From a virus: a stretch of DNA of 24,308 nt. This document shows positions 5,174 to 17,960 of the stretch, piece by piece. Position 1 is the first letter of the stretch. Each line of letters begins with the position of its first letter. Below the pieces are notes generated by a model, which was not told where the DNA came from, ran no database searches, and saw only the letters and a list, made by a program, of their open reading frames with translations. The stretch covers positions 1-24,308 of IMG/VR virus record IMGVR_UViG_3300044625_001140; one strand, given 5' to 3'. The translations under genes were made by a program, and so were the position numbers.

Positions 5174-5236
5174 AGTGCAATGCCGAGCGGGACGGGCGCG
5201 CACGCCGCGCGCCGCCGATCGGCGGGAGGCAATGCA

Positions 5237-6133
5237 ATGGCTCTAGACTACTTTGACAATGGCGCGCGCGACGCTGCGCGCGAGGACGACCGTACAGAAG
5301 AACGGCGGGAATGGCGCTTGGCGGTTTGGGCGGCGCGTGCCGAATTGTGGCGCGCTACGGTCGCGTGCGATGCCGGGACGCAATCCCGGATTGCGATGAT
5401 CCTCTCGGGCGCGGTGGAAGGCACGCCTCCCGCTCGGCTCGAACCGTGCAGGCTCGCCCACGCCTCCCGCGGCCTCCATGCCGTAGTAATGCATTCCAGC
5501 CGCATCGGGATGGTGCGCGGGACGGCTCGCCACGTGCGTGGAAGCTTGGATCCGCAAGCGGCGTGGGACACCGTGCGTGGCCAGGGTAGCGCTCAAACGC
5601 GCGCGGACTACTTTGCGGATGCGGCCGCGTCGCGAAACTTGCGCGCGGAAGCGCAGGGTAGCGCGCCGGACTGGCTTCCCGCGATCGGACGCGCCGCGCG
5701 AGCGCTACAGGTTTGGGCGCGAGCCACGCGAATCAGCCGCGCGCCTTGGCGGCCGGAAGCGGAGTCGGACTCGGAATCGGAATCGAATTGCGAGCCGGCC
5801 TTCCGATCATGGAATCGGAGTCTAGCGCGGCTGCGCCGCGCGCAAGCGGCCGCGCGCGCCGCGCGTGCTGGCATGAATTGCGCGCCGATGCCATTGCAAG
5901 CCTACCTAGTTCGTGCGGAGCGGTGCGCGCCGTGCGATTGCCAGACTTGCCAGTCCATGGAAGCCATGGCCAAGCGTTGGCGCGCGTTGTGCGCCGAGAC
6001 GGAATCGGAAGCTACTTCCAGCACGGCCCCCTACCCCGAACCGGATTCCGCGCCTTGGATGAATTGGAACCTGCGGAAGGCGCGCCTGCTGCGCCGCGAT
6101 CGATTGCGTCGCGCGCGCGCCAAGCAAGCCTAG
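5237..6133 (+). CDS. Unknown Ala/Arg-rich protein of unusual composition (298 aa)
   Basis: The start M-A-L-D-Y-F was chosen for a GGGAGG ribosome site 7 bases upstream. The protein is very rich in Ala and Arg. It has an acidic serine run E-A-E-S-D-S-E-S-E-S-N at 174-184, then an Ala/Arg helix (A-Q-A-A-A-R-A-A-R-A-G), then a cysteine cluster C230-A-P-C-D-C-Q-T-C238 that may bind a metal, and a strongly basic tail (R-D-R-L-R-R-A-R-A-K-Q-A). A basic tail plus a cysteine cluster would fit nucleic-acid binding, which is only an inference. Codons and oligonucleotides (GCGC, ATTGCG, repeated GGAATC) differ from the neighbouring genes. I recognise no family. It stands alone between two non-coding regions. 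Confidence 0.6.
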   Translation: MALDYFDNGARDAAREDDRTEERREWRLAVWAARAELWRATVACDAGTQSRIAMILSGAVEGTPPARLEPCRLAHASRGLHAVVMHSSRIGMVRGTARHVRGSLDPQAAWDTVRGQGSAQTRADYFADAAASRNLRAEAQGSAPDWLPAIGRAARALQVWARATRISRAPWRPEAESDSESESNCEPAFRSWNRSLARLRRAQAAARAARAGMNCAPMPLQAYLVRAERCAPCDCQTCQSMEAMAKRWRALCAETESEATSSTAPYPEPDSAPWMNWNLRKARLLRRDRLRRARAKQA

Positions 6134-6156
6134 CGCCGCATTCCGCGCCGCATTCC
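6133..6156. repeat. 12-base tandem repeat, two copies
   Basis: GCGCCGCATTCC is repeated at 6133-6144 and 6145-6156, starting on the last base of the preceding gene's stop codon. It is a close relative of the 12-base unit at 5004-5039, so the unusual gene is bracketed by related repeats. Confidence 0.7.
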
Positions 6157-6240
6157 GCGCCCCGCCCTGCGCCCCTCGCGCTCGCCGGGGCGCTTTCGTT
6201 TCCATTGCGCTCGCCCCTTGCGCCTCGCCCGGCTCGCGCG

Positions 6241-6300
6241 CCGCTCCCGCAGCCGGGGACGGGAGCCGATACCCCGCAGCTCCCGCCGCTCCCGCAGCCG
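6241..6300. repeat. 15-base direct repeat
   Basis: CCGCTCCCGCAGCCG occurs at 6241-6255 and again at 6286-6300, 45 bases apart, inside the C-rich half of the non-coding region. Shorter CCGCAG and CTCCCG copies lie between and after them. It may be a protein-binding repeat or simple-sequence drift. Confidence 0.7.
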
Positions 6301-6339
6301 TTGCCGCAGCCCTTTCGCGCGTCCCAGACCCCGCGACCC

Positions 6340-6363
6340 CCCCCTGCCGGGGGTGCCAGGGGG
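6340..6363 (+). terminator. GC hairpin, possible terminator or structural signal
   Basis: CCCCCTG at 6340-6346 pairs with CAGGGGG at 6357-6363, with a 10-base loop. It lies 207 bases after the stop of the gene ending at 6133 and has no T-run after it, so intrinsic termination is uncertain. Confidence 0.3.
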
Positions 6364-6386
6364 ACTTGCGCTGCCGACGACGCGGG

Positions 6387-6403
6387 GAGGGGGCAATCCC
6401 CTC
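6387..6403 (+). terminator. Second GC hairpin, possible terminator or structural signal
   Basis: GAGGGG at 6387-6392 pairs with CCCCTC at 6398-6403 around the 5-base loop GCAAT. The sequence after it contains ATTT but not a proper T-run. Together with the hairpin at 6340 it marks the point where the strand switches from C-rich to G-rich. Confidence 0.3.
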
Positions 6404-6513
6404 ACAGAATTTCCGACCTAGGCTTGTCGGACTTGCGTGTGCTAGCGTGCGGGAGGGCAGGCGGGAGTCGCTGGTGGTGTGTGGCTCAAGCTCACACGCT
6501 GTAGCTAGGGGCT

Positions 6514-6525
6514 AGCGCTAGCGCT
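6514..6525. repeat. Perfect 12-base palindrome AGCGCTAGCGCT
   Basis: The site is fully self-complementary and contains a tandem of the CTAGCG motif that recurs nearby. It lies about 155 bases upstream of the sulfatase start and could be an operator for a dimeric repressor; that role is inferred. Confidence 0.55.
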
Positions 6526-6679
6526 GTGGGGGTGTGGGGGTTGTACACTTGGGTGTCTAGCGTTGGGAAGGGCGGTTTTAGGGAGTTGGTGGTAGGTGTG
6601 GTGTTGGTGGGGGGTTGTGGCGGCTAGAAAAGGTCGGGAAATGAGTTGACGGCGGAAGTCGATTGTTAAGGTGGGAGCC

Positions 6680-8185
6680 ATGCCGGTGGTAGTTCCTGGG
6701 TTGGATCCGATCAGGCCGGTGGCGTTGGAGGTACGTGTGCAGCCGAACATCATCGTGTTTGCTCCTGATGACTGGGGTCGGGATGCGTGGAGCGTGTATG
6801 CGGACACGTTGGGCGGAGTGCAGGTCACGAATCAGGCGTACACGCCCAACCTGAATGCGCATGCGCAGGCGGGGGTGAGGTTCAACCGTGCGTACGTGCA
6901 GCCGTGGTGCTCGCCCACGCGGGCGCAATGGATGACGGGGCGGTGGGGGTACAAGACTGGGATCGGGGCGCTGGCGCAGGACGGAGACCAGTCGCTGCTG
7001 GATGCGGAGGTGACGTTGCCGAGGGCGCTGAAGCTGGCGACGAACGGCGCGTACACGTGTGCGGCGTTCGGGAAGTGGCACCTGTCTGGGTTCAGCAATG
7101 CCGGCGGGGCGATTGGGCACCCCATTCGTTGCGGGTTCGACGAGTGGGCGGGGCAACTCATCAACATGGAGTTGCCGGAAAGTTACTTCGCGTGGCCGCT
7201 GTCGAGGGCAAAGCGGACGCGGACGGGGATCGAATCGGAGAGCCACGAGCTCGTGCAGGACTACCAGCCGATCTGGTTGATCGAAGAGGCGTTGCGGTGG
7301 ATTGCGCGGACGCCGCAGCCGTGGTTCTTGTACCTGCCCATCAGCATGCCGCACGGCCCCATGCACAGGCCGCCGCCGGAGATGTACCGCACGGACGTGT
7401 GGAACCTGCCGGCCCAGTTCCCCGACCTGATCTCGAGCCGGAACTATCCGACTTCGGTGCCGTACTTCCGCGCCATGGTGGAGGCCATGGACTACGGGTT
7501 CGGGCGGCTGATGAACGGGATGCCGCAGGAGACGAGGGAGCAGACCACGACCATCGTGTGGGCGGACAACGGGACGGCAGCGGTCAACATCCCGATTGGA
7601 GTGAACGCCTTCCCTGCAGGTCGGTCCAAGCAGACGGTGTACGACCTCGGGATCAGGGTGCCGCTCGTGGTGTCGGGCGCGAAGGTCGAAGCGCCTGGCC
7701 GGACGTCCGAGCAGATCGTGAGCGCCTGCGACCTGTTCGAGACCGTCATCGCGCTTGCGAACGGAAGCTCGATCGCCGTGCCGGTGCCCACGACGCCCTC
7801 TTCGCCGGCGAGCAGAAACAGCAACAGCATCGTGCCCGTCTTGCGCAACACGGGAGCCAGCGGGCGGACGGCGGTGCAGGCCGACTTCTTCCAACCAAAC
7901 ATCCCCCATCTTAATGCCAGCGTCACGGGATCGCGCTGCTACGTGAAGACCATCACGGCAGGGGCGGGTGCCGGAACGTGGAAGATCATGCGCAAGGACG
8001 GCAGCGGGACGGGCCCTTGGCCTGGGTCGGGAACGGGGGTGGCGAACTACGAGTTCTACAACTTGGTCGCGGACCCGAACGAAGCAACGAATTTGATTGC
8101 CGGAAGTTACACCTTGACGGCAGCGCAGGATGCGGCCTACAACGAACTCGTAAACGACTACGCCAGCATCTGGAGTACCTACTGA
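6680..8185 (+). CDS. Sulfatase with intact formylglycine motif (501 aa)
   Basis: This is a type I (arylsulfatase-type) sulfatase, which hydrolyses sulfate esters. The opening P-N-I-I-V-F-A-P-D30-D31-W-G supplies metal-binding aspartates. C77-S-P-T-R81, within C-S-P-T-R-A-Q-W-M-T-G-R, is the site where a host enzyme converts Cys to formylglycine. G-K132-W-H134, M-P-H225-G-P, W-A-D296-N297-G and K317 before Y-D-L-G-I-R-V-P complete the usual active site. The length is normal for the family. The first 20 residues are not a classical signal peptide, so the protein probably stays in the cytoplasm or in the virion. The C-terminal region (about 340-500) is Ser/Thr/Gly-rich and less typical. The ATG at 6680 was preferred to the GTG at 6671 because GTGGGAG serves it as ribosome site. 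Its stop overlaps the next start. Confidence 0.92.
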   Translation: MPVVVPGLDPIRPVALEVRVQPNIIVFAPDDWGRDAWSVYADTLGGVQVTNQAYTPNLNAHAQAGVRFNRAYVQPWCSPTRAQWMTGRWGYKTGIGALAQDGDQSLLDAEVTLPRALKLATNGAYTCAAFGKWHLSGFSNAGGAIGHPIRCGFDEWAGQLINMELPESYFAWPLSRAKRTRTGIESESHELVQDYQPIWLIEEALRWIARTPQPWFLYLPISMPHGPMHRPPPEMYRTDVWNLPAQFPDLISSRNYPTSVPYFRAMVEAMDYGFGRLMNGMPQETREQTTTIVWADNGTAAVNIPIGVNAFPAGRSKQTVYDLGIRVPLVVSGAKVEAPGRTSEQIVSACDLFETVIALANGSSIAVPVPTTPSSPASRNSNSIVPVLRNTGASGRTAVQADFFQPNIPHLNASVTGSRCYVKTITAGAGAGTWKIMRKDGSGTGPWPGSGTGVANYEFYNLVADPNEATNLIAGSYTLTAAQDAAYNELVNDYASIWSTY

Positions 8186-8412
8186 TGTTCCCGATGATGT
8201 TCCCAAAGATGTCGAGCGGGATGATGACCCAGCTCAAGAACGGACTGAGCACGGGCAAGCCGATGGAGCAGAACGCTCCGGCTGCGGGCGCGATGAACGT
8301 CGCCAACATGAAGAGCGCGACGAACGGCGCGACGAACGGCGGAGGGAACAAAGTCGGCAAGGCGGTTGGGGGCATGTTGGACAAGTTGAAGGCGAAGGGT
8401 CCGACGTTGTGA
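8185..8412 (+). CDS. Small Met/Gly/Asn/Ala-rich protein (75 aa), unknown function
   Basis: The ATG shares one base with the sulfatase stop (TGATG). The protein begins M-F-P-M-M-F-P-K-M-S-S-G-M-M and then is low in complexity, with A-T-N-G-A-T-N-G-G-G-N-K and a basic end (K-L-K-A-K-G-P-T-L). About ten methionines in 75 residues is exceptional. There is no membrane helix. I do not recognise it. The coupling with the sulfatase and with the two basic peptides that follow suggests one transcription unit; they may be virion or DNA-bound peptides. Confidence 0.65.
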   Translation: MFPMMFPKMSSGMMTQLKNGLSTGKPMEQNAPAAGAMNVANMKSATNGATNGGGNKVGKAVGGMLDKLKAKGPTL

Positions 8413-8612
8413 GCTCGGAACGCGGCGAATCGAAGCGGCACGAAGCCATGGAGCGCGTGCGCAAGAGCTTGGCGGCGAACGCCCGCAAGCGGAAGCAAAG
8501 CCGCAGGCAGGTCGCCATGCAAGAGACGTACAGCCCGCCCAAGTCGTTCAAGGGACAGTCGGGCAGAGCCGGCGCCATGAACGTGCGGGGCGGAGTCAAG
8601 AAGGGCAAGTGA
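8409..8612 (+). CDS. Small strongly basic protein (67 aa), unknown function
   Basis: The gene starts with GTG in a GTGA overlap with the previous stop. The protein is rich in Lys and Arg: R-V-R-K-S-L-A-A-N-A-R-K-R-K-Q-S-R-R-Q-V at about 17-36 should form a positively charged helix, and the tail R-G-G-V-K-K-G-K is also basic. It is likely to bind nucleic acid or the packaged genome. It contains G-A-M-N-V, as does the preceding protein, a small shared motif. No family recognised. Confidence 0.65.
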   Translation: MSSERGESKRHEAMERVRKSLAANARKRKQSRRQVAMQETYSPPKSFKGQSGRAGAMNVRGGVKKGK

Positions 8613-8613
8613 C

Positions 8614-8781
8614 ATGAAGGGTTCCTCCTGCAAGAGCGGTGGCAAGAAGGTCGGCATGGGCTACGGCACCAAGAAGATGAGCGCCGCCAAGGCCGGTGCC
8701 GCCGCGAAGAAGGCCGGCATGCCGAAGGGCGCCAAGCGCGGCATGATGTCGTCGATGAAGAGCGGCGGTCGAGGCGCGTGA
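8614..8781 (+). CDS. Tiny Lys/Gly/Ala/Met-rich basic protein (55 aa)
   Basis: The ATG lies 1 base after the previous stop. The protein has low complexity, with S-G-G-K-K-V-G-M-G-Y-G-T-K-K-M-S and then K-A-G-A-A-A-K-K-A-G-M-P-K-G-A-K-R-G-M-M. The Lys/Ala/Gly style resembles histone H1-like tails and the G-Y-G-x-K-K-M pattern that I recall from small phage virion peptides. A role in binding DNA or as a minor virion component is inferred. The stop shares one base with the next ATG (TGATG). Confidence 0.65.
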   Translation: MKGSSCKSGGKKVGMGYGTKKMSAAKAGAAAKKAGMPKGAKRGMMSSMKSGGRGA

Positions 8782-9245
8782 TGGGCGACAAGGGCGACGA
8801 CTTGACGTCGGACGAGCCCTATGTGCCCAACATGAGCCTGGACGATGCCGACGCGCTCATGCGCTACAGCAACGCTCGTGGTCGACAAGACTACGAACGG
8901 CGCATGCAAGGAAGGAAGCACATCTGGGTGAGACCTGACAACAACGGCGGGCCTGGCGACCAGAGCTCCTACGTCGGCGCAGCCGACACGGGGTTCGTGG
9001 AGCGCATCGCGGAGATCGAGAAGAAGCTCGATGCCGGACTGCCGCTGTCGGATGCCGAGGCCGAGTACATGGTCTCGCGCACCATCACGCGCATCCTGCG
9101 CACCTCGCGCAGGCCCACGCACGTGCTGAAGGCCATCGAGATGCTGCAACAGGCTCGAGCCAAGAAACTGGTGGCGAAGATGCTGGAGGCCAACGTCACC
9201 ATCCAGAAGAACGACCCGCCTCCGCCGCAACTCAATCTGCCATGA
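8781..9245 (+). CDS. Unknown phage protein (154 aa)
   Basis: The ATG at 8781 overlaps the previous stop; a GTG at 8778 is an alternative. The protein starts with an acidic stretch (M-G-D-K-G-D-D-L-T-S-D-E-P). Its middle contains F-V-E-R-I-A-E-I-E-K-K-L-D-A-G-L-P-L-S-D-A-E (two helices) and then R-T-I-T-R-I-L-R-T-S-R-R-P-T-H-V-L-K, a positively charged helix. The helical, basic middle could bind DNA, and a small-terminase-like role is conceivable, but it lies about 3 kb upstream of the terminase and nothing specific supports that. It ends in a Pro-rich tail. Stop overlaps the next start (ATGA). Confidence 0.65.
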   Translation: MGDKGDDLTSDEPYVPNMSLDDADALMRYSNARGRQDYERRMQGRKHIWVRPDNNGGPGDQSSYVGAADTGFVERIAEIEKKLDAGLPLSDAEAEYMVSRTITRILRTSRRPTHVLKAIEMLQQARAKKLVAKMLEANVTIQKNDPPPPQLNLP

Positions 9246-9454
9246 ACATCCAAGCCATCCTCGCCAAGATCGCCGGCTCCTCCACCTGGTGGGTCAGCCT
9301 GCTCCTGCCCGTCCTCAAGGTGCTCCTTGAGAAGATCGGCATCATCATCCCGTGGGAAGTCGTCATGGCCGGCACCGGCGCGTACGGCGTCAAGGAAGCC
9401 GCCGCCAAGCTGCAACCTGTCGTCGCCGCCAAGCTGGCGCAGAAGAGCGAGTGA
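9242..9454 (+). CDS. Small holin-like membrane protein (70 aa)
   Basis: The ATG overlaps the previous stop as ATGA. The protein has a hydrophobic stretch from about residue 14 to 38 (S-T-W-W-V-S-L-L-L-P-V-L-K-V-L-L and then I-G-I-I-I-P-W), possibly one long or two short membrane helices, followed by an Ala/Lys-rich tail (V-K-E-A-A-A-K-L and A-A-K-L-A-Q-K-S-E). Size, charge and layout fit a holin, the pore former that triggers phage lysis. No endolysin is visible next to it, so the call stays tentative; it may just be a membrane anchor. Confidence 0.55.
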   Translation: MNIQAILAKIAGSSTWWVSLLLPVLKVLLEKIGIIIPWEVVMAGTGAYGVKEAAAKLQPVVAAKLAQKSE

Positions 9455-9455
9455 G

Positions 9456-10124
9456 ATGAACTGGAAGATCCTCGCGGGCTTGTGGCTCGTGGGTGCGGTC
9501 GTGCTGGGCGGAACCAGCAAGGGTTCGCGCTCGCGCACGCAGGTCCACGAGGGTCCGTTCGTCGGCACGTCCGCCACCGTCCAAGATCCAGGCGAGGTCG
9601 AACTGCCCGCGTACACCGGCAGCGCGCCCCTCGCTCGAGTCCAGCTCACCGTCCGACACCACATCTCGTGGCGCGTGCGGTTCGAGAACCTCGACGGGTT
9701 CGTGTGGTGGGGGCAGAACGGCTGGGGATACCCCACCGTCTACTCGTACCCCTGGTTCCACAACGAGCAGAACGGCGTGACCATGTTCGGCCTGCCAAGC
9801 TGGTCCATCCTCCAATGCTTCCTGCCTACGCTGCAGGAGTACGACGGAGTCTTGGACTACGCAGGAATGTCGGGCGTCACCAGCACCGTGCTGTGGGACT
9901 ACTGCGCGCAACCGGACTACTGGACGACCACGACCTACACCATCACGGAACCCTACGCGCTCGCGCCGTTCCGCGACCCCGATGGCGTTGCGAGCTTCGA
10001 CATCCGCCCCATGGCCTGGGTGCAGGAAGATGTTGGCATGATGGTGCCCACGGCGGGCAGCCTCGCTTCGCAGCTCGACTGGTTCGCGTGGGACGTGATC
10101 GTCGACCGCGTGCAGTACAACTAG
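9456..10124 (+). CDS. Putative exported or membrane-anchored protein (222 aa)
   Basis: The ATG follows the previous stop by 1 base. The N-terminus M-N-W-K-I-L-A-G-L-W-L-V-G-A-V-V-L-G-G has a positive charge followed by a hydrophobic core, like a signal peptide or signal anchor; there is no lipobox cysteine. The remainder is rich in Trp, Tyr and other beta-formers: W-W-G-Q-N-G-W-G-Y-P-T-V, then Y-S-Y-P-W-F-H, and T-T-T-Y-T-I-T near 160. This suggests an exported beta-sandwich or a virion surface protein. I recognise no family. Its stop codon and that of the opposite-strand gene share the bases CTAG. Confidence 0.65.
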   Translation: MNWKILAGLWLVGAVVLGGTSKGSRSRTQVHEGPFVGTSATVQDPGEVELPAYTGSAPLARVQLTVRHHISWRVRFENLDGFVWWGQNGWGYPTVYSYPWFHNEQNGVTMFGLPSWSILQCFLPTLQEYDGVLDYAGMSGVTSTVLWDYCAQPDYWTTTTYTITEPYALAPFRDPDGVASFDIRPMAWVQEDVGMMVPTAGSLASQLDWFAWDVIVDRVQYN

Positions 10125-10354
10125 GCCGGCGGCGGGCGCTTGAGCGGCACGGACGGCGGGCGCTTCTTCACCGGCGCCGGCATCACCGTCGCAGTCAAGG
10201 CCATGGTGGCGTTCAACTTGCGAACGTCCCAGTCGGCCTCGTTGCCGTAGCGGTGGATCGCCGCGTCGCAGGCATCCATCTGCGACATGAACGGCCCGTA
10301 CAGCTCGCCCCGCCGCACGATCACGAACGCCTCGTTGATCTCGTACTCCGTCAC
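10121..10354 (-). CDS. Small unknown protein downstream of the replication gene (77 aa)
   Basis: The gene starts with GTG in a GTGA overlap with the end of the replication-initiator-like gene. The protein begins (M)T-E-Y-E-I-N-E-A-F-V-I-V-R-R-G-E-L-Y-G-P-F, a likely beta-hairpin, continues with C-D-A-A-I-H-R-Y-G-N-E-A-D-W-D-V-R-K-L, and ends in a Pro/Lys-rich tail (K-K-R-P-P-S-V-P-L-K-R-P-P-P-A). By position it should be made together with the initiator. The function is not recognised. A helicase-loader role would be the classical neighbour function, but the protein is far too small and lacks a Walker motif. Confidence 0.65.
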   Translation of the reverse strand: MTEYEINEAFVIVRRGELYGPFMSQMDACDAAIHRYGNEADWDVRKLNATMALTATVMPAPVKKRPPSVPLKRPPPA

Positions 10355-11220
10355 CTTCGAGCCCCCTTGAGCTGCTCGATCTCGAGCGACGCCCTCTCCG
10401 CACCAGGCCATTCCGGCACGAACCCGTTCACCCGCGAATGCCACTTGTACCACTCGTCGCGCAGATCGTCGCCCGCCTCGTGCGGCGGCTGACCGCGCCT
10501 GACGCTCTGCGCGCTCGTCTGCCGCGACTTGACGCCGAGTTGGTTCCATTGCCCAAGGAGCACCGTCGGCGACGCGCTACGGGCCAGCCAAGCGTCCTGG
10601 GAGTCAAGCATCGCCGTCATGCGTGCCTTGACCTCGTCCTCGGTTCCCATCTTGAGGAGTTTCGAGACCGCGACGGCGTCCTTGGTCTGGATCTGGTAGC
10701 GGGTGCCGCGAGTGCGCAGCCACTCCTTCTCCCACCACTGAATGCAATTTGGATGGGGAGCCGAAGCGAGCTTGCGAGCTTCCCCCTCGGGAGAGGTGGG
10801 AGAGGGGGAGAGAGGAGAGGTGTTAATAGGGGGTGTGGGGGAAAGAAGAGGAGAGGGAGAGGGGGAGGGGAGGTCACACCCTGTAGGGCGTGACACGGTG
10901 TGACGTCGCTTTTGCTGTCGCTTGGCCGCCGCCTGCCGCTTCTCGTTCTCCGCCTCCTGCATCCGCGCCACGAACGGCGACACCCACCCCTGGTCCGTCC
11001 GGGCGAGGATGCCCGTCACCTGCTCCCACGCCTGGTGGAAATCCACGCACAGCCGACCGTACAGCCGCTCGAAGTACAACTCGTCGTCGGGGATGAACCC
11101 ATGCTCGAGCTGCCACACCACCAGCTCCGCGAACAGACCACGAGCCTCCAGGCTCAACAGCGCAACCTCGGGATTGCGCCAGAGTTGCGTTGTCATCTTG
11201 CTCCACTTCTTGTTTGTCAT
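10351..11220 (-). CDS. Replication-initiator-like protein with winged-helix-like N-terminus (289 aa)
   Basis: The start M-T-N-K-K-W-S-K has AAGGTAG upstream. Residues 1-90 (T-Q-L-W-R-N-P-E-V-A-L-L-S-L-E-A-R-G-L-F-A-E-L and on to G-W-V-S-P-F-V-A-R-M) resemble the N-terminal helical DNA-binding domain of phage replication proteins and DUF1376/DnaD-type proteins. A basic helix follows (K-R-Q-A-A-A-K-R-Q-Q-K-R-R, 94-106), then a Pro/Ser linker (117-144), then a C-terminal domain with W-W-E-K-E-W and K-D-A-V-A-V-S-K-L-L. This layout is like lambda O: DNA binding, linker, partner binding. The DNA that encodes the linker holds a purine tract and an inverted repeat. A sigma70-like promoter lies upstream (11249-11276). 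The fold assignment is from pattern, not a search. Confidence 0.6.
   Translation of the reverse strand: MTNKKWSKMTTQLWRNPEVALLSLEARGLFAELVVWQLEHGFIPDDELYFERLYGRLCVDFHQAWEQVTGILARTDQGWVSPFVARMQEAENEKRQAAAKRQQKRRHTVSRPTGCDLPSPSPSPLLSPTPPINTSPLSPSPTSPEGEARKLASAPHPNCIQWWEKEWLRTRGTRYQIQTKDAVAVSKLLKMGTEDEVKARMTAMLDSQDAWLARSASPTVLLGQWNQLGVKSRQTSAQSVRRGQPPHEAGDDLRDEWYKWHSRVNGFVPEWPGAERASLEIEQLKGARR
10789..10904. other. Candidate replication origin inside the initiator gene
   Basis: The stretch 10789-10873 is almost pure purine on the + strand, with an unbroken 37-base purine run at 10837-10873. Directly beside it, GTCACACC (10873-10880) and GGTGTGAC (10897-10904) form a perfect 8-base inverted repeat around 16 bases, which also contain a GTGACAC copy. 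Lambdoid phages carry their origin inside the initiator gene in the linker-coding part; the same position here suggests an origin. A Pro/Ser linker alone can also cause a purine-rich opposite strand. Confidence 0.35.
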
Positions 11221-11229
11221 AATACTACC

Positions 11230-11258
11230 TTGAATGGGGACGGGGCGTAGTGTACGCT
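11230..11258 (+). promoter_or_regulatory. Candidate rightward promoter for the packaging/head genes
   Basis: TTGAAT at 11230-11235 and TACGCT at 11253-11258 are separated by 17 bases. The -35 box matches 4 of 6 and the -10 box 3 of 6 consensus bases. It lies about 55 bases upstream of the ATG at 11315, and its -10 box overlaps that of the leftward promoter. Confidence 0.3.
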
Positions 11259-11276
11259 GCGTATCGTCAAGGTCAA
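11249..11276 (-). promoter_or_regulatory. Candidate leftward promoter for the replication gene
   Basis: On the - strand TTGACC (11271-11276) and TACACT (11249-11254) are 16 bases apart and lie about 30 bases before the ATG at 11220. The -35 box matches 5 of 6 and the -10 box 4 of 6 consensus bases, the best promoter match in the window. A second TTGACG overlaps the spacer. Confidence 0.5.
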
Positions 11277-11314
11277 CACCAATCACCCTAGAACGCTGCG
11301 CAGTAGGCACGCCC

Positions 11315-11539
11315 ATGAAGAAGCGGTTCGCGAAGACGGTCAAGAGCCCCACCACTGGCCGCACTCGCACTGTCCGCTACGGGCAGTCAGGCTCGAGCAT
11401 CAAGCCTGGGACGCCCAAGGGCGATGCCTACTGCGCGCGGTCTCTCAAGATCAAGGGCGACTGGAAGTCCGACCCCAACAGCCCCAACAACCTCAGCCGC
11501 AAGAAGTGGCGCTGCAAGGGCGCCAAGTCGATGCGGTAG
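11315..11539 (+). CDS. Small conserved basic phage protein (74 aa), DUF6321-like
   Basis: The protein begins M-K-K-R-F-A-K-T-V-K-S-P-T-T-G-R and contains V-R-Y-G-Q, then G-T-P-K-G-D-A-Y-C-A-R-S, then D-P-N-S-P-N-N-L-S-R-K-K-W-R-C-K-G. I recall this set of blocks from a small, widespread environmental-phage protein of unknown function (I believe DUF6321). It is strongly basic, with two cysteines. The start ATG at 11315 has no strong ribosome site; the frame is open to 11234 but homology-like sequence starts at M-K-K-R. It is the first gene of the rightward packaging/head operon and may bind nucleic acid. The role is not known. Confidence 0.75.
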   Translation: MKKRFAKTVKSPTTGRTRTVRYGQSGSSIKPGTPKGDAYCARSLKIKGDWKSDPNSPNNLSRKKWRCKGAKSMR

Positions 11540-11546
11540 CTTGATC

Positions 11547-11578
11547 GTGCATCTCCAGTGCGAGAGTCGGGGATGCAC
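11547..11578 (+). promoter_or_regulatory. Intercistronic stem-loop, possible RNA processing site
   Basis: GTGCATCTCC (11547-11556) pairs with GGGGATGCAC (11569-11578), ten pairs including one G-U, around a 12-base loop. It begins 8 bases after the stop of the 74-aa gene. There is no T-run, so it is more likely an RNA-stabilising or processing hairpin, or a partial attenuator, than a full terminator. Confidence 0.45.
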
Positions 11579-11606
11579 TGCTAGGAGAAGCAGGCGGGTC
11601 GGCGTG

Positions 11607-12008
11607 ATGAGCGCCGGCCCGTTTCAAACCATGGACGACATCCAGAAGAAGGAGAAGCTCCGCCTGTACATGCGCGACTACCGCAAGCGCATGAAGGAGT
11701 CCAAGCGGTGCATCGCCTGCGGAATCCCCGTCACCGACGGCAGGACGATGTGCCCCGACCACCGCGAGAAGACAAGGCAGAGGAACCGCAGGTCCAACCG
11801 CCTGCGGCGCCTCGACGCCAGCCCCTTCGTCGGTGAGCTCGCCACCCAGCTCGAACTGCGCCGGCAACTGACCAACAAGTTCAACGAACTCATGGACACG
11901 CTCGTCGGCGAGATCTCCGAGTGCGACACGCGCATCGCCATGATGATCGACACGCACAACTCCCACCTCGTGTCCATGCGCGACAAGCTCAAGGTCGAGC
12001 AAGGCTGA
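11607..12008 (+). CDS. Small zinc-finger protein before the terminase (133 aa), possible packaging accessory
   Basis: The protein has a basic helical N-terminus (K-K-E-K-L-R-L-Y-M-R-D-Y-R-K-R-M), a probable zinc site C-I-A-C-G-I-P-V-T-D-G-R-T-M-C-P-D-H at about 32-49 (C-x2-C plus C-x2-H), a basic stretch R-Q-R-N-R-R-S-N-R-L-R-R, and a helical C-terminal half (L-R-R-Q-L-T-N-K-F-N-E-L) that could oligomerise. Its stop overlaps the terminase ATPase start (TGATG). DNA binding plus oligomerisation right before the large terminase would suit a small-terminase role, but the sequence is not a recognised small terminase. ATG at 11631 (M-D-D-I-Q-K) is an alternative start; neither has a strong ribosome site. 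Confidence 0.6.
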   Translation: MSAGPFQTMDDIQKKEKLRLYMRDYRKRMKESKRCIACGIPVTDGRTMCPDHREKTRQRNRRSNRLRRLDASPFVGELATQLELRRQLTNKFNELMDTLVGEISECDTRIAMMIDTHNSHLVSMRDKLKVEQG

Positions 12009-13384
12009 TGTTCAAGCCGCCCGATCCCGCGACCCTCGCCTCGCTCCAGAAGCGCGTCGACGAGGCCAGCGAGGATCCCCAGATCCGCGACAACCACCTG
12101 TACGCCGGACTGTTCGACAGGACATCCGGCGTGTACGGAGACGCCGCATCCTCGCCCGAGTTCGTCCGCGACGCGCATGGAGCCAGGCTCGTGCGCACGC
12201 GACTCTCCCGCCGCGAGTGGATCGAACGCTACTTCCCCATCCGCGACAAGGCCGGCAAGATCGGGCCACTCAAGCTCAACCGCGCGCAACGCAGGCTCGA
12301 GACGTGGATCCTGCAGATGGAGATGGCCGGCGTGCCCGTGCGCATCATCATCCTCAAGGCCCGCCAGATGGGCTTCTCCACCTACGTGCAAGCCTGCATG
12401 TTCGAGAAGCTCCTGCGCGAGAAGAACTTTCGCGGGCTCATCATCGCGGACAACAAGGATCGCTCCAAGCTCCTGCTCCAGATCGCCGAGACCGCCCGCA
12501 CCTCGATGGTCAAGACCAGAACCCAAGCGGGGGAAACGGTCCACTGGGACTTCAAGATGAAGTCCAAGGCGACCAGCTCGCTCGTATGGACAGACCCGAT
12601 CCGTGGAGAGATCCACGTCACAAGCGCAGAAACCCCCGAGCCAGGTCGCGGTGGAACAAGGACGATGGTCCACTTGTCCGAGACCGCGCACTGGCCCGAC
12701 GCCGAACGCAAGCAAGCCGGCGTGATGGCTTCGCTTCCTACGTTGCCAGGCACCTACGGATTCGACGAGAGCACGGCCAATGGCGACCAAGGGAAGTTCC
12801 GTGACGACTTCTGGCGCGCGTGGAAGCAGCGCGACATCGACTTGTTCGAACGCACCGATCCATGGCACGCCGTGTTCTTCGCCTGGTGGGAGCACGACGA
12901 GTACCACTGGACGCGCACCTACGGATCGGGACGCTCCATCCCCGAGAAGCTCGCCGAGCAGATCAAGAACAGCCTCGACGAGGAGGAACGCTGGCTCTTG
13001 AAGCAGACCTACATCCGCCGCTGGAGGAGCGACGACCAGTGGCGGCAGGTGCCGGCCAAGCAGGGACGCAAGCTCGTGTTCGACGAAGATGGCAAGTTCA
13101 CGACCAAGACCGCCCCCGTCGACAAGCCGCACAAGTGGTGCCGCGTCGGAGTCGGACTCGTGCCCGTCTCCATCGACCAGCTCGCGTGGCGCAGGCAGAA
13201 GCTCTCCGACAAGGAGATCGCCAACGACCTGATGCTGTTCAACCAGGAGTATCCCTCCCGCCCGCAGATCGCGTTCATGTCCACCGGCAGGCCGGTCTTC
13301 GACATGGACTGCATCGACAGGATGCTCGCGCTCGCGCGCGACAACCCGCCGCGCTTCGTCGGAAGCATGAGGGTCGAGGAGTGA
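12008..13384 (+). CDS. terL: Large terminase, ATPase part (458 aa), lacking the nuclease domain
   Basis: The terminase ATPase drives DNA into the empty capsid. Visible motifs: Walker A-like K117-A-R-Q-M-G-F-S-T125 after I-I-I-L; Walker B-like T-M-V-H-L-S-E225 with the catalytic Glu at its end; the coupling-type motif E-S-T-A-N-G at 254-259. The terminase-typical block L-F-N-Q-E-Y-P-S, then A-F-M-S-T-G-R-P-V-F-D (about 421-441), follows. In usual large terminases the RNase H-fold nuclease comes next in the same chain; here the frame stops after S-M-R-V-E-E. The missing domain is encoded at 14955-15653, beyond a methyltransferase gene. The three genes lie in three different frames, so this is not an in-frame intein. 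The start overlaps the preceding stop. Confidence 0.9.
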   Translation: MFKPPDPATLASLQKRVDEASEDPQIRDNHLYAGLFDRTSGVYGDAASSPEFVRDAHGARLVRTRLSRREWIERYFPIRDKAGKIGPLKLNRAQRRLETWILQMEMAGVPVRIIILKARQMGFSTYVQACMFEKLLREKNFRGLIIADNKDRSKLLLQIAETARTSMVKTRTQAGETVHWDFKMKSKATSSLVWTDPIRGEIHVTSAETPEPGRGGTRTMVHLSETAHWPDAERKQAGVMASLPTLPGTYGFDESTANGDQGKFRDDFWRAWKQRDIDLFERTDPWHAVFFAWWEHDEYHWTRTYGSGRSIPEKLAEQIKNSLDEEERWLLKQTYIRRWRSDDQWRQVPAKQGRKLVFDEDGKFTTKTAPVDKPHKWCRVGVGLVPVSIDQLAWRRQKLSDKEIANDLMLFNQEYPSRPQIAFMSTGRPVFDMDCIDRMLALARDNPPRFVGSMRVEE

Positions 13385-14958
13385 AGTACCTGTCCGTGTG
13401 CAGCGGCATCGAGGCCGCGACCGTCGCGTGGCACCACTTGGGCTGGGAACCCGCCGGCTTCGCCGAGATCGAGAAGTTCCCCGCGCAGGTGCTCGCGCAC
13501 CATTATTCTCGAGTCCCCAATTTCGGAGATCTGACGGAGCATGATCAGTGGCCCCTCGAGCCTAGAGCAGTTGACCTTCTGGTCGGAGGAACTCCCTGCC
13601 AAGCCTTCAGCGTCGCCGGACTGCGGCGAGGCATGGACGATGCGCGTGGTCAGCTCACCCTTGAGTTCGTCCGACTGGCTGCACGACTACGTCCGCGCTG
13701 GGTCGTCTGGGAAAACGTCCCTGGCGTCTTGTCCAGCGGAGGAGGACGGGACTTTGGTTCCTTCCTCGGCGCGTTGGGCGAACTCGGGTATGGGTACGCC
13801 TACCGCGTGCTGGACGCTCAGTACTTCGGAGTGGCCCAGCGCCGCCGTCGTGTGTTCGTTGTCGGATACCTTGGAGACTGGCGTCGTGCCGCGGCGGTTC
13901 TTTTTGAGCGCGAAAGCCTGCGCGGGAATCCTCCGCCGCGCCGAGAAGCGGGGCAAAGACCTGCCGGAGCTTCTGTCGCAGGCGCTGCGTCAGGTCGCCA
14001 GCATGCAGCCAAATGGCCCGCGGAAATTGCCTGCACCCTGAACACACGATACGGCGACAAGCAGGGTCTTGAAGACCAACACGCGTTTGGCGGCGCATCG
14101 TTGTTCGTGCCGGCGGTTGGAAGCGACTGCTACAACGGAAGCGTGACTGGCGATGTTGCAGCAAAAATCGGCACGGCAGGTTCGTCTTCGAGCTCTTCGG
14201 GGCCAACGGTGATGGTGCAGCAGCCAGCGATGGCTTTCCATGAAAACCAAAAGGGAAAGGTAACTCTCAGCGACACGGCTGGCAGCTTGACAGGAGGCGG
14301 CGGCAAGCCGGGCCAAGGGTACCAGGCAGTGATGCAGCCGATCGGCACCGACTGCTTCAATGCTCGCCAAGACCCCGTGCAGTACGGCGACCAGGCGGGT
14401 GCGCTTGATCAGGATGGATACACGATGGCGGTGGCGCAGCCGATGGCATTTAGCGCAAAAGATCATGGAGCTGATGCTTCGTCCGATATCGCTCCGACCC
14501 TGCGAGCGATGGGTCACGCCGGTAGTCACGCAAATGGGGGAGGGCAGATGGCGGTGGCCTATGACGTTCATGGCACGCTAGCCAAAAAAGGTGCAAGCCA
14601 GACCGATTGCCATACCGCCCTGCGGTCTAGGCCGCCTGGGCAGAGCGAGGCCAGCACAACGACTGTCGTGGCGTTCAAGGAATCACAGAGCGGTTGCCGC
14701 GTGGGCCACGTTCACGCAACTCTAGACGCCAACAAGGGCAGCCGCCGGATGGAGGGCGTGCTCTCTCCTATGGCCGTCCGCCGTCTTACGCCCCGCGAGT
14801 GCGAGCGTCTGCAAGGATTCCCAGACGGCTACACCGACATCCGTCCTCGCGGTAAGGACACGCCTGATGGACCGCGCTACAAGGCGCTCGGCAACAGCAT
14901 GGCCGTGCCGGTCATGCGCTGGATCGGCGAGCGCATCGCCAAGGTCGACCAAGCATGA
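13381..14958 (+). CDS. dcm: C5-cytosine DNA methyltransferase with repeated target-recognition region (525 aa)
   Basis: This enzyme transfers a methyl group from S-adenosylmethionine to cytosine C5 in DNA. Motif I is S-V-C-S-G-I-E-A (5-12); motif IV is G-G-T-P-C73-Q with the catalytic Cys; motif VI is W-E-N-V (110-113); motif VIII is Q-R-R-R-R (153-157); motif IX is L-T-P-R-E-C-E-R-L-Q-G-F-P (469-481); motif X is G-N-S-M-A-V-P (504-510). Between VIII and IX lie about 300 residues built of roughly seven degenerate repeats of 30-40 residues. It starts with GTG overlapping the terminase stop (GTGA) and ends overlapping the nuclease start (ATGA). No restriction enzyme is nearby, so it is probably an anti-restriction orphan. 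Much of the gene (about 13500-14850) has A/T-richer codons than its neighbours. Confidence 0.93.
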   Translation: MKYLSVCSGIEAATVAWHHLGWEPAGFAEIEKFPAQVLAHHYSRVPNFGDLTEHDQWPLEPRAVDLLVGGTPCQAFSVAGLRRGMDDARGQLTLEFVRLAARLRPRWVVWENVPGVLSSGGGRDFGSFLGALGELGYGYAYRVLDAQYFGVAQRRRRVFVVGYLGDWRRAAAVLFERESLRGNPPPRREAGQRPAGASVAGAASGRQHAAKWPAEIACTLNTRYGDKQGLEDQHAFGGASLFVPAVGSDCYNGSVTGDVAAKIGTAGSSSSSSGPTVMVQQPAMAFHENQKGKVTLSDTAGSLTGGGGKPGQGYQAVMQPIGTDCFNARQDPVQYGDQAGALDQDGYTMAVAQPMAFSAKDHGADASSDIAPTLRAMGHAGSHANGGGQMAVAYDVHGTLAKKGASQTDCHTALRSRPPGQSEASTTTVVAFKESQSGCRVGHVHATLDANKGSRRMEGVLSPMAVRRLTPRECERLQGFPDGYTDIRPRGKDTPDGPRYKALGNSMAVPVMRWIGERIAKVDQA

Positions 14959-15653
14959 ACTTCAAGTTCGAGCCCTACGCGCGCGGCGGTCTCCAGATCT
15001 GGAAGGATCCCGAGGAGGGCCGGAAGTACGTCGCCGCGTCCGACACCGCAGGCGGACTCGCTCGAGGGGACTTCGCCGTCATCGTGGTCATCGAGGGCGA
15101 GACCTGCGAGGTGGTCGCGCGCTGGAAGGAACGCGACGACCCGCACGTGTGGGGGCCGAAGTGCGCCTGGCTGTCGTGGTACTACAACGAAGCCCTGCTC
15201 GCGTTCGAGACGTACCCCTCGGCCCACGGCTACACCGCCTGCATGGAAGCCATCAACAAGGGCTACAAGAAGATCTACAAGCGGCAGCGGCAGGACACCA
15301 TCTCCAAGCAGGTGTCCGAAGTCCTGGGCTGGCACACCAACTCCACCACCAAGCCCCTGCTCATCGACCGCATCAAGCGCGCACTCGACGAAGGCGCGCA
15401 CATCCCAGACGAGGAATTGCTCTACGAACTACGCGACCAACGCTGGAACGGAAAGGGCGAGATGGAGTCGCGGGGACACGACGATATGGTCATTGCATAC
15501 GGCATTGCGCTCGCTGTCCGTGATCAGTCATGGACAAGGGGCCTATTGCGTCCTGAGCCTGTAGTGCCTAGGACAGAGTCGGAACGCTACTGGGCTGCGT
15601 ACGACAAGCGTCTTACCGCCAAGCCCAAGAAGCGAAAGCTCTACCATGGATGA
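14955..15653 (+). CDS. terL: Large terminase, RNase H-fold nuclease part (232 aa)
   Basis: This is the C-terminal nuclease domain that cuts packaged DNA, encoded as its own gene. After a linker-like opening (F-E-P-Y-A-R-G-G-L-Q-I-W-K-D-P) comes R-K-Y-V-A-A-S-D30-T-A-G-G with the first catalytic Asp, then G-D-F-A-V-I-V-V-I and V-A-R-W-K-E-R. The second acid, E85, is in A-L-L-A-F-E, and the last pair is in R-G-H-D176-D177-M-V-I-A-Y-G. Together with the ATPase gene it makes about 690 residues, longer than most terminases. The start overlaps the methyltransferase stop (ATGA) and has no strong ribosome site, so it depends on translational coupling. The two chains must meet as separate proteins, or be joined at RNA level if an unseen intron exists. 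Confidence 0.85.
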   Translation: MNFKFEPYARGGLQIWKDPEEGRKYVAASDTAGGLARGDFAVIVVIEGETCEVVARWKERDDPHVWGPKCAWLSWYYNEALLAFETYPSAHGYTACMEAINKGYKKIYKRQRQDTISKQVSEVLGWHTNSTTKPLLIDRIKRALDEGAHIPDEELLYELRDQRWNGKGEMESRGHDDMVIAYGIALAVRDQSWTRGLLRPEPVVPRTESERYWAAYDKRLTAKPKKRKLYHG

Positions 15654-15921
15654 TGCGTTGAACGGCTGGGAGTTCGGAGTGCTGGCGATCGTCGCGCTGA
15701 CATGCGCGCTGCCCGTCGCGGCGGTGTCATGGGCGTTGGTGCGCGTCAATCTCCGCCTCGCCGACCAGAACCGCGACTTGCTGAAGGCGATCCTCGCCAG
15801 CAGCGAAAGGCCGCAGGCCGCCGCCGTCGCGGGCGCCATGGAGATCACTGATCGCGAGAAGGTGGCGCAGGAAACCATGGGGCGCGCGACTCTGCCTCGC
15901 CGCCACGCAGGAGCAGGATGA
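15646..15921 (+). CDS. Small membrane protein between terminase and portal (91 aa)
   Basis: The ATG lies 8 bases inside the end of the nuclease gene. Residues 9-30 (E-F-G-V-L-A-I-V-A-L-T-C-A-L-P-V-A-A-V-S-W-A-L) form one clear transmembrane helix, followed by a helical charged segment (V-R-V-N-L-R-L-A-D-Q-N-R-D-L-L) and an Ala-rich, basic tail. Layout (short outside part, one helix, cytoplasmic coil) would fit a holin or a spanin-like protein, but no other lysis gene is near. Stop and portal start overlap as ATGA. Confidence 0.7.
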   Translation: MDDALNGWEFGVLAIVALTCALPVAAVSWALVRVNLRLADQNRDLLKAILASSERPQAAAVAGAMEITDREKVAQETMGRATLPRRHAGAG

Positions 15922-17960
15922 AGCTCGACGAAGGCAATCTGATCGAGATGATCGACAAGCGTGTCGGTCTCCACGAGTCGCGTCTCGAGCGCCTCGCACT
16001 CGAGGAATCGTGGATCTCGAACGTCGCCTTCTGGAGCGGCAAGCAACGCTTCTTCTTCGAGCAGGGACGCCTGTTCGACGCCGGCATCGACGACCCCGAG
16101 GCGGCGACGCACTACAAGGTCAACCTCATTCGCTCGCGCGTGCTCGCCGCCTGCGCGAAGGTGCTCGCGGTCAACGCGGAGTTCCGCTGCCGCCCGCCCA
16201 CCGGCACCAGCCGCGACCGCGAACTCGCGCAGCTCGCCGAGCGCGTCTTCGATCACATCCGCGAAGTCACCGACTTCGAGTGGCATCTCATGATGTCCAC
16301 GCTGTGGAAGGCCGTCTGCGGCTCGTCCTTCCTCAAGATCACATGGGATCCGTTCAAGGGGGAGCCTGATCGCTTCTACCTGTCGGATGCGCAGAACCGC
16401 CGCGTCATCCCCGAGCAGATGCTTTCTCAGGCAATCAAGCAGGAGAAGGACAGGGCCGGGCTCTTCGAGGACTACTCCCCTGGCGATATCTCAGTTAGCG
16501 TCCTGTCGCCGTTTGCCGCGTTCCAGGATACGAGCAGCCGCGACTCGCAGATGATGGGCTGCCAGTGGTTCGCGGAGAAGCACTACGTCGACATCGACCG
16601 CATCGCGGAACGCTTCGACATCGACCCCAAGGACATCCAGCCCATGGAGGCGGATGCCGGCCTGCGCAACTACGAGGAGGCCATCGCGTTCATGTCGAAC
16701 GGATCCGGCTTGTCGCTCGTGGACTGGGCGCAGCCCGAGGACAAGCGCGGCAAGCGCACCCAGTACGTCGAGCTCTGGCAGCGACCGAGCAAGCAGTACC
16801 CGCGCGGCATGCGCGTCGTGTACGCGGGCGGGCGCATCCTCAACCTCAACCGCGCCGGCGGACTCGACAACCCCTACATCGCCGACCGCACCGGCTGGTC
16901 GCACCTGCCCTACGTCAAGGACGACTGGTGCCCGCACCCCGGCAGGTTCTGGGGCGCGTCGCTCGTCGAGGATCTGCTCGGCCCGCAGTACTACCTCAAC
17001 GAAGCCCGCACCGTGATGATGCAGTTCATGGAGACGTTCGGTCTCCCGAACACCTACGTCGGCGACCAGTCGGGCATCGACACCGACAGCATGCCGGTCG
17101 GCGGTGGACGCATCTACCAGGTCAACGAGGTGTCTTCGTTCAAGGTGCAGCACGGCCCCCCGCCCCAGATCCCGCCCGACGTGGCGCGGTTCATGGACGT
17201 GTGCGAAGCCGACCTCAACAAGGCCGCCGCGCAGTCCGAGATCAACGCCGAGGGATTGCCGGGGCAGCTCCGCTCCGGCAGCGCCGTGCGGGCCATCAAC
17301 GAGGAGCGGTTCATCACGCTGACCGTGCCCTCCAAGTCCACGCTCCGCACCGTGCGCGACGCCGGCAAGATCTGCCTCGCGCTCGGCAAGATGTACTACG
17401 GCCCCAAGCGCACCATGCGCTACCTCGGCGAGGACGCGGAATGGGTCGTCGAGGAGTTCGACGGCTCCGACCTGCTCAACGACTTCGTCATCGTCGGCAA
17501 CCCGTCCGTCGCGGACACGCTCGGCTCCGCGCGCGAGGAGATGCTGGACGCCCTGCAGGCCGGCGCGTTCAACCCGCAGTTCGACGAGCAGACCCGCGCG
17601 CTCATCCTGAAGGGCCTGCACTACAACACCAGCGACGAGTTCATCAAGCGCACCCTCCAGGCGGAGCGGAACCAGGAGCGCGAGATCCAGGAGATGATCA
17701 AGGATCCGCTCAAGTACGGCGACGAAGGCTACCCCGTCATGGAGTGGGAGGACCACGCCAAGGAATCGACGGTCATCATCGCGTACATGTACACGCCGGA
17801 GTTCAAGGGGCTGCCCGTGCAGACGCAGGCGCTCATCACAGACCACTGGAAGAAGCATCAGATGTTCATCCAGCAAGCCCAGATGCAGGCCATGCAGATG
17901 GCCGAAGCAGTCAAGGGCATCCCAGGCCAAGTCGGCCAAGCATCCCAACCTTCATTCTGA
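15918..17960 (+). CDS. Portal protein (680 aa), P22-like size
   Basis: The portal is the dodecameric ring at one capsid vertex through which DNA enters and leaves. The call rests on size, position directly after the terminase, and portal-like blocks: N-L-I-R-S-R-V-L-A-A-C-A-K-V (about 72-85), F-W-G-A-S-L-V-E-D-L-L-G-P-Q-Y-Y-L-N-E (about 344-362), which matches the usual wing/stem entry in portals, and the following T-V-M-M-Q-F-M-E-T-F. The C-terminal part holds a long helical section ending Gln/Met-rich (M-F-I-Q-Q-A-Q-M-Q-A-M-Q-M), as expected for a crown or barrel. The length is close to P22-type portals. The start at 15918 overlaps the upstream stop, with GCAGG just before. The gene ends 3 bases before the next. 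Confidence 0.88.
   Translation: MKLDEGNLIEMIDKRVGLHESRLERLALEESWISNVAFWSGKQRFFFEQGRLFDAGIDDPEAATHYKVNLIRSRVLAACAKVLAVNAEFRCRPPTGTSRDRELAQLAERVFDHIREVTDFEWHLMMSTLWKAVCGSSFLKITWDPFKGEPDRFYLSDAQNRRVIPEQMLSQAIKQEKDRAGLFEDYSPGDISVSVLSPFAAFQDTSSRDSQMMGCQWFAEKHYVDIDRIAERFDIDPKDIQPMEADAGLRNYEEAIAFMSNGSGLSLVDWAQPEDKRGKRTQYVELWQRPSKQYPRGMRVVYAGGRILNLNRAGGLDNPYIADRTGWSHLPYVKDDWCPHPGRFWGASLVEDLLGPQYYLNEARTVMMQFMETFGLPNTYVGDQSGIDTDSMPVGGGRIYQVNEVSSFKVQHGPPPQIPPDVARFMDVCEADLNKAAAQSEINAEGLPGQLRSGSAVRAINEERFITLTVPSKSTLRTVRDAGKICLALGKMYYGPKRTMRYLGEDAEWVVEEFDGSDLLNDFVIVGNPSVADTLGSAREEMLDALQAGAFNPQFDEQTRALILKGLHYNTSDEFIKRTLQAERNQEREIQEMIKDPLKYGDEGYPVMEWEDHAKESTVIIAYMYTPEFKGLPVQTQALITDHWKKHQMFIQQAQMQAMQMAEAVKGIPGQVGQASQPSF

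Follow-up and report, generated by a model that had tools for sequence, protein, structure and literature searches.

The sulfatase gene and its neighbours

We analysed a virus record of 24,308 bases, the whole of which is referred to here as the window. It includes genes for TerL, a P22-like portal, a major head protein and a RecE-like exonuclease and, judged by this gene content, the contig bearing the sulfatase is a genuine tailed-phage record. An S1-family (type I, formylglycine) sulfatase of 501 aa is encoded on the + strand at 6680..8185, and was identified from PF00884, phrog_19870, an AlphaFold model and a match to 1fsu. The start codon, ATG at 6680, is preceded by the Shine-Dalgarno-like AAGGTGGGAG, and the sole earlier in-frame start is a GTG at 6671. 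The match to PF00884 had an E-value of 1.5e-29 and a score of 103.7 bits, the cut-off being 25, while phrog_19870 was matched at 2.3e-24.

The formylglycine motif, C77-S-P-T-R81, lies at 6908..6922 (+) and follows the CXPXR consensus that is converted to formylglycine by FGE (PMC4505483). In terms of the broader pattern C/S-X-P/A-X-R it reads C77SPTR81, and it is kept in all members of the phage group (described below) that cover the motif. In addition, the protein has D30, D31, R81, K132, H134, H225, D296, N297 and K317, which we take, from general knowledge of S1 enzymes, to be metal ligands or catalytic residues. Across 51 aligned relatives from phages and bacteria, K132, H134, H225, D296 and K317 were invariant and D30, D31, C77, P79, T80, R81 and N297 nearly so; the catalytic set was identical throughout the phage-group members that cover those positions. 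The AlphaFold model, built from this 51-sequence alignment, had a pLDDT of 90.1 and a pTM of 0.93. Its best solved match was human arylsulfatase B (1fsu; Z 41.8, rmsd 2.6, 393 residues), with which model residues 19-501 align across the two-part S1 fold, including the C-terminal subdomain. The solved proteins nearest by sequence were carrageenan and N-acetylgalactosamine sulfatases, and the closest enzymes (S1_19, S1_16 and ARSB) shared about 20-28% identity with the window protein. Pairwise dN/dS values of 0.09-0.23 indicate that the gene is under purifying selection, and its GC content is level with that of its surroundings.

The original prediction was of a complete type I sulfatase with every expected residue, and the motif, the catalytic set and the PF00884 match all bear this out. 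It had also named a grouping with inactive pseudo-sulfatases as an outcome that would overturn it; instead, the catalytic set was found to be intact and conserved. We rejected the pseudo-sulfatase reading as unlikely because the residues are conserved, the whole S1 fold is modelled and dN/dS is 0.09-0.23. The fold and residues of an S1 sulfatase are thus well supported, and catalytic activity is predicted.

To the left of the sulfatase lies a gene of 317 aa with no assigned function (5180..6133, +), whose homologue in contig L013 (37.5% identity over 264 aa) also stands before a sulfatase. The gap between the two genes (6134..6679, +) has no assigned gene and may hold a promoter; no sigma-70-like site was found in 6134..6679, and RNA folding of this upstream region showed nothing exceeding shuffled sequences. 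On the right, a small ORF of 75 aa containing 'APAAGAMNV' (8185..8412, +), also present in L002 and L003, is likely to be translationally coupled to the sulfatase because its start overlaps the sulfatase stop (TGATG). It is followed by a small basic ORF of 67 aa containing 'AGAMNVRGG' (8409..8612, +), equivalents of which, with 'APAGAMRISG', come after the sulfatase in L013, L023 and L025. The AGAMN / APAGAMRISG motif is common to these small post-sulfatase ORFs (8185-8612 in the window, and equivalents) across divergent phages. A conserved gene of 155 aa with no assigned function (8778..9245, +), 79-93% identical in related phages, forms the right-hand anchor of the locus. Beyond it, 9242..9454 (+) encodes a small protein with one possible membrane segment, which from its sequence is possibly holin-like and for which no PHROG match was found.

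Occurrence and allele exchange in the phage group

A search of IMG/VR with the portal yielded 24 contigs, most of them 89-100% identical. Six of these (L011, L013, L016, L021, L023 and L025) reach through the locus, and the sulfatase was present in 6/6; since L016 and L025 are near-copies, the six represent five distinct lineages. The remaining contigs end before the locus, L019 ending just 410 bases upstream of gene 8778. Two further cases, L002 and L050, were recruited via the sulfatase itself, and in L050 homologues of early genes stand before it. Across these contigs, the sulfatase is a standard component of the phage group. A chimeric contig, which had been raised as a possible refutation, was rejected, as the sequences on either side of the gene are found again, with the locus in synteny, in independent contigs (L013, L025 and L050).

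Among L021, L023 and L025, which are nearly identical elsewhere (pairwise identities of 99.8-100% for the ATPase part of TerL and 97.8-99.7% for the portal), the sulfatases are only 79.7%, 60.6% and 56.7% identical, with dS values of 0.85, 1.46 and saturation. Neighbouring genes have dS values mostly of 0.01-0.1, with gene 9242 reaching 0.19 in the L025 pairs. In 250-base windows, the DNA identity of L023 and L021 is 96% just upstream of the sulfatase, 68-75% within the alignable part of the gene, the rest being too diverged for alignment, and back at 99% from position 2001. The sulfatase and terminase trees also conflict: the L013 sulfatase groups with those of L023 and L025, and its terminase with those of the window and L002. 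Because the sulfatases differ strongly between near-identical phages and the trees disagree, we conclude from these comparisons that sulfatase alleles are exchanged whole, as a cassette. Of the remaining genes compared, the most divergent were MCP (dS 0.22-0.40) and gene 22235 (dS 0.40); gene 23229, at 90% amino acid identity, has a dS of only 0.03 and is not among them. The MCP is 81-91% identical across the three contigs, where neighbouring proteins are mostly 96-100% identical, and its divergence is concentrated in a single internal stretch.

Discrete allele exchange is a usual feature of genes whose products contact the host surface, and one would expect it less of a gene for internal metabolism. 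The main argument for an extracellular role of the sulfatase, which we infer from this likeness, is that its alleles are exchanged in the manner of host-surface-interaction genes. Neutral recombination with more divergent phages could also have caused the exchange. Two uses of the enzyme had been envisaged, namely desulfation of a capsule or exopolysaccharide and release of sulfur from polymers; cassette exchange between near-identical phages favours the former over the latter.

Maturation, origin and possible role of the enzyme

It had been expected that the phage would depend on its host to mature the enzyme. In agreement with this, the phage contigs, themselves incomplete, yielded neither FGE (PF03781) nor radical-SAM (PF04055) genes, and a host maturase is therefore the likeliest source of the formylglycine. 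FGE-family genes were present in 13 of 14 genomes holding bacterial relatives, a count that says nothing about the phage's own host. FGE genes have been reported in Pseudoalteromonas phages (PMC10232697).

The absence of a signal peptide, another of the original claims, was confirmed: none was visible in the phage sulfatases by inspection and hydropathy. A hydropathy count found a hydrophobic N-terminal segment in 48/56 bacterial relatives. In the window, the leader is a proline-rich N-terminal extension of about 20-22 residues (6680..6739, +; low model confidence of 64-69) without a hydrophobic core, and is not a signal peptide. It is absent in L023, L025 and L006, in which the protein starts 2-8 residues before the first strand. 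On these grounds Sec export before lysis appears unlikely, and the possible sites are then the virion, the lysate and the cytoplasm. The model contains no extra or recognisable virion-attachment domain. A signal-less sulfatase is also carried by L006, a single fragment of a second, unrelated phage. There, 7 bp separate the gene from the virion structural gene (phrog_3758) before it, and genes for the head-tail adaptor, head closure, head morphogenesis and the capsid lie downstream; the sulfatase protein matches phrog_19870 at 4.3e-18, and no further relatives of it were found. The capsid of Ruegeria phage Tedan shares 55% identity with the L006 capsid; in the corresponding region of Tedan, no equivalent of the sulfatase was detected. 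In this one case, the gene order hints at late expression or virion association. For the virion mounting suggested at the outset, the evidence is indirect.

A tree with bacterial families had been suggested as a way to find the donor group, and it named none. When 84,980 species genomes were scanned with a pattern filter, the best 80 bacterial matches were at most 37% identical to the window protein, and the nearest were spread over several phyla. The eight sulfatases of the phage group grouped together with full support, on a stem of 0.85 substitutions, and the placement of this clade near Planctomycetota and other sequences was weakly supported. Six contigs with bacterial relatives (L110, L113, L106, L057, L108 and L083) were rejected as phage contigs, since no phage genes were recognised in them by eye; the bacterial relative in L110 adjoins molybdenum-cofactor-type genes. 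A sulfatase-rich host, as originally proposed, was not supported either, no host being found in the genomes sampled. The portal gave one weak match (23%) in 392 genomes of the phylum of a Planctomycetota locus. For TerL, the phyla of Verrucomicrobiota, Pseudomonadota and Bacteroidota loci were sampled at about 400 genomes apiece, and only distant matches were obtained, about 32% identical and in the Pseudomonadota set. These searches covered samples of genomes and exclude no host. Among named phages, even the nearest were <30% identical for each of TerL, portal and MCP.

Phage sulfatases are rare, as had been stated. Only 14/50,697 phage records matched the window protein; identity was about 35% or less, and in no case did the match span as much as 80% of the query. 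Four were inspected and are unverified, unannotated fecal scaffolds, and others are long bacterial-type contigs. A literature search found no report of a phage-encoded sulfatase, conserved and exchangeable or otherwise; an 'arylsulfatase regulator' is listed in a Vibrio phage (PMC10473537). Both the window and L006 proteins match PHROG 19870, a phage protein family of unknown function that PHROGs does not annotate as a sulfatase; some further (pro)phage relatives have therefore been recorded. Significant matches in a viral structure library included giant-virus sulfatases and no bacteriophage sulfatase. Those of Yasminevirus and Tetraselmis virus 1 are likewise virus-encoded and have the same fold, but are 14-16% identical to the window protein and come from viruses of eukaryotes. 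With S1 carbohydrate sulfatases (1fsu; PsS1_19B, 6prm/6psm; Ps i-CgsB, 6bia; a Pedobacter enzyme, 7stt) it shares the whole fold, the formylglycine motif and the catalytic set, whereas it is phage-encoded, about 20-28% identical, without a signal peptide and in a clade of its own on a long stem. The novelty lies in the setting of an otherwise ordinary S1 fold, and in a pattern of exchange through which its role can be tested.

Taken together, we lean, by a small degree, towards a functional S1 carbohydrate sulfatase that is matured by the host, desulfates the host coat or matrix outside the cell and is exchanged as a host-matched cassette. We infer its activity, host maturation, extracellular site, delivery by virion or lysate and substrate. 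The enzyme, lacking an export signal, would be synthesised in the cytoplasm of the host, whose own maturase (FGE or anSME) would turn Cys77 into formylglycine. Its target would lie outside the cell, and it would arrive there either carried on the virion or set free along with the progeny when the cell lyses; at that site it may remove sulfate esters from the host capsule, exopolysaccharide or surrounding sulfated matrix, which would aid adsorption or spread. Its specificity would be matched to the local host coat, and we propose that this is why the cassette is exchanged between near-identical phages. A point against a virion role is that the N-terminal extension, of about 20 residues, is not universal in phage sulfatases.

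It is also conceivable, and in our view unlikely, that the gene is an auxiliary metabolic gene, whose active cytoplasmic product frees sulfate from small esters or imported oligosaccharides for host or phage metabolism. Sulfatases are common in carbohydrate-using bacteria, and the lack of a signal peptide and of a known virion-attachment domain alongside a complete active site would suit such a function. However, one would not expect the alleles of an internal metabolic enzyme to be swapped between phages that are otherwise nearly identical. Its closest relatives of solved structure are glycan sulfatases (arylsulfatase B and carrageenan S1_19 enzymes among them), the majority of bacterial relatives seem to be exported, and the L006 sulfatase sits among structural genes. 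That last gene, lying within a head/connector cluster, also weighs against a role at lysis alone, in which a released soluble enzyme loosens a sulfated matrix and frees progeny with no part in adsorption. The position of the window gene outside the portal-MCP-tail block, and the small possible membrane protein at 9242-9454 among its right-hand neighbours, are compatible with this; yet no endolysin was recognised adjoining the sulfatase and the holin-like call is itself tentative, and we regard a purely lytic role as quite improbable. PF00884 and the alkaline phosphatase superfamily also include phosphotransferases and phosphonate hydrolases. A promiscuous member acting mainly on a phosphonate or a phosphate mono- or diester, perhaps in nucleotide or lipid metabolism, would fit the weak NCBIfam matches, which include PehA and fall far under the cut-off. 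Such an identity is very doubtful given the CSPTR motif, the conserved K132, H134 and K317, and closest folds that are glycan sulfatases.

Phages are well known to use enzymes that cleave the capsule backbone or take off acetyl groups. Capsule depolymerases and tailspikes offer an analogy to the proposed coat-directed sulfatase in working only, as exchangeable glycan-active modules; the window protein lacks the tailspike fold and would take off sulfate where those enzymes cut the backbone, and its attachment to the virion is only putative. As a tentative extension, to which we give somewhat less than even weight, a virion-borne or lysis-released sulfatase may be an interchangeable host-specificity module, desulfation a distinct means of passing the coat, and coat sulfation a trait under phage-driven diversifying selection. 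If true, the gene would mark phages whose hosts have sulfated coats, sulfation would be indicated as a defence layer, and phages would become a new source of glycan sulfatases. Moreover, it would become testable whether phages depend on host formylglycine machinery to arm an enzyme of their own.

A sister record and the terminase junction

A sister record of 37,560 bases, G023, has a portal identical to that of the window. Its other end matches the left part of the window, and it stops before the sulfatase. The late region of this record (L028, L038 and L039) encodes proteins of 2759 and 2978 aa at 7990-16269 and 19113-28049, the second of which has, by eye only, a C5-methyltransferase-like stretch and an HExxH-like motif. 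A 90-aa protein at 29762-30034 (-) resembles an acyl carrier protein by eye.

The large terminase is split into two ORFs, an ATPase part and a nuclease part (11999-15653 in the window). A C5-cytosine methyltransferase gene stands exactly at the junction between the two in the window, L012, L026 and L027, and a methyltransferase gene is found there, at least on the left side, in L002. No insert is present in L008, which is 97-100% identical to the window and in which the two ORFs are joined by a GTGA start/stop overlap (L008 1500-1545), or in L011 (5895-5940), L019 and L021. Other inserts, of about 250-1070 bases, occupy the junction in L025 (7125-7410), L013 (7870-8335) and L030. These arrangements suggest that the junction is a site within the terminase at which cargo genes insert.
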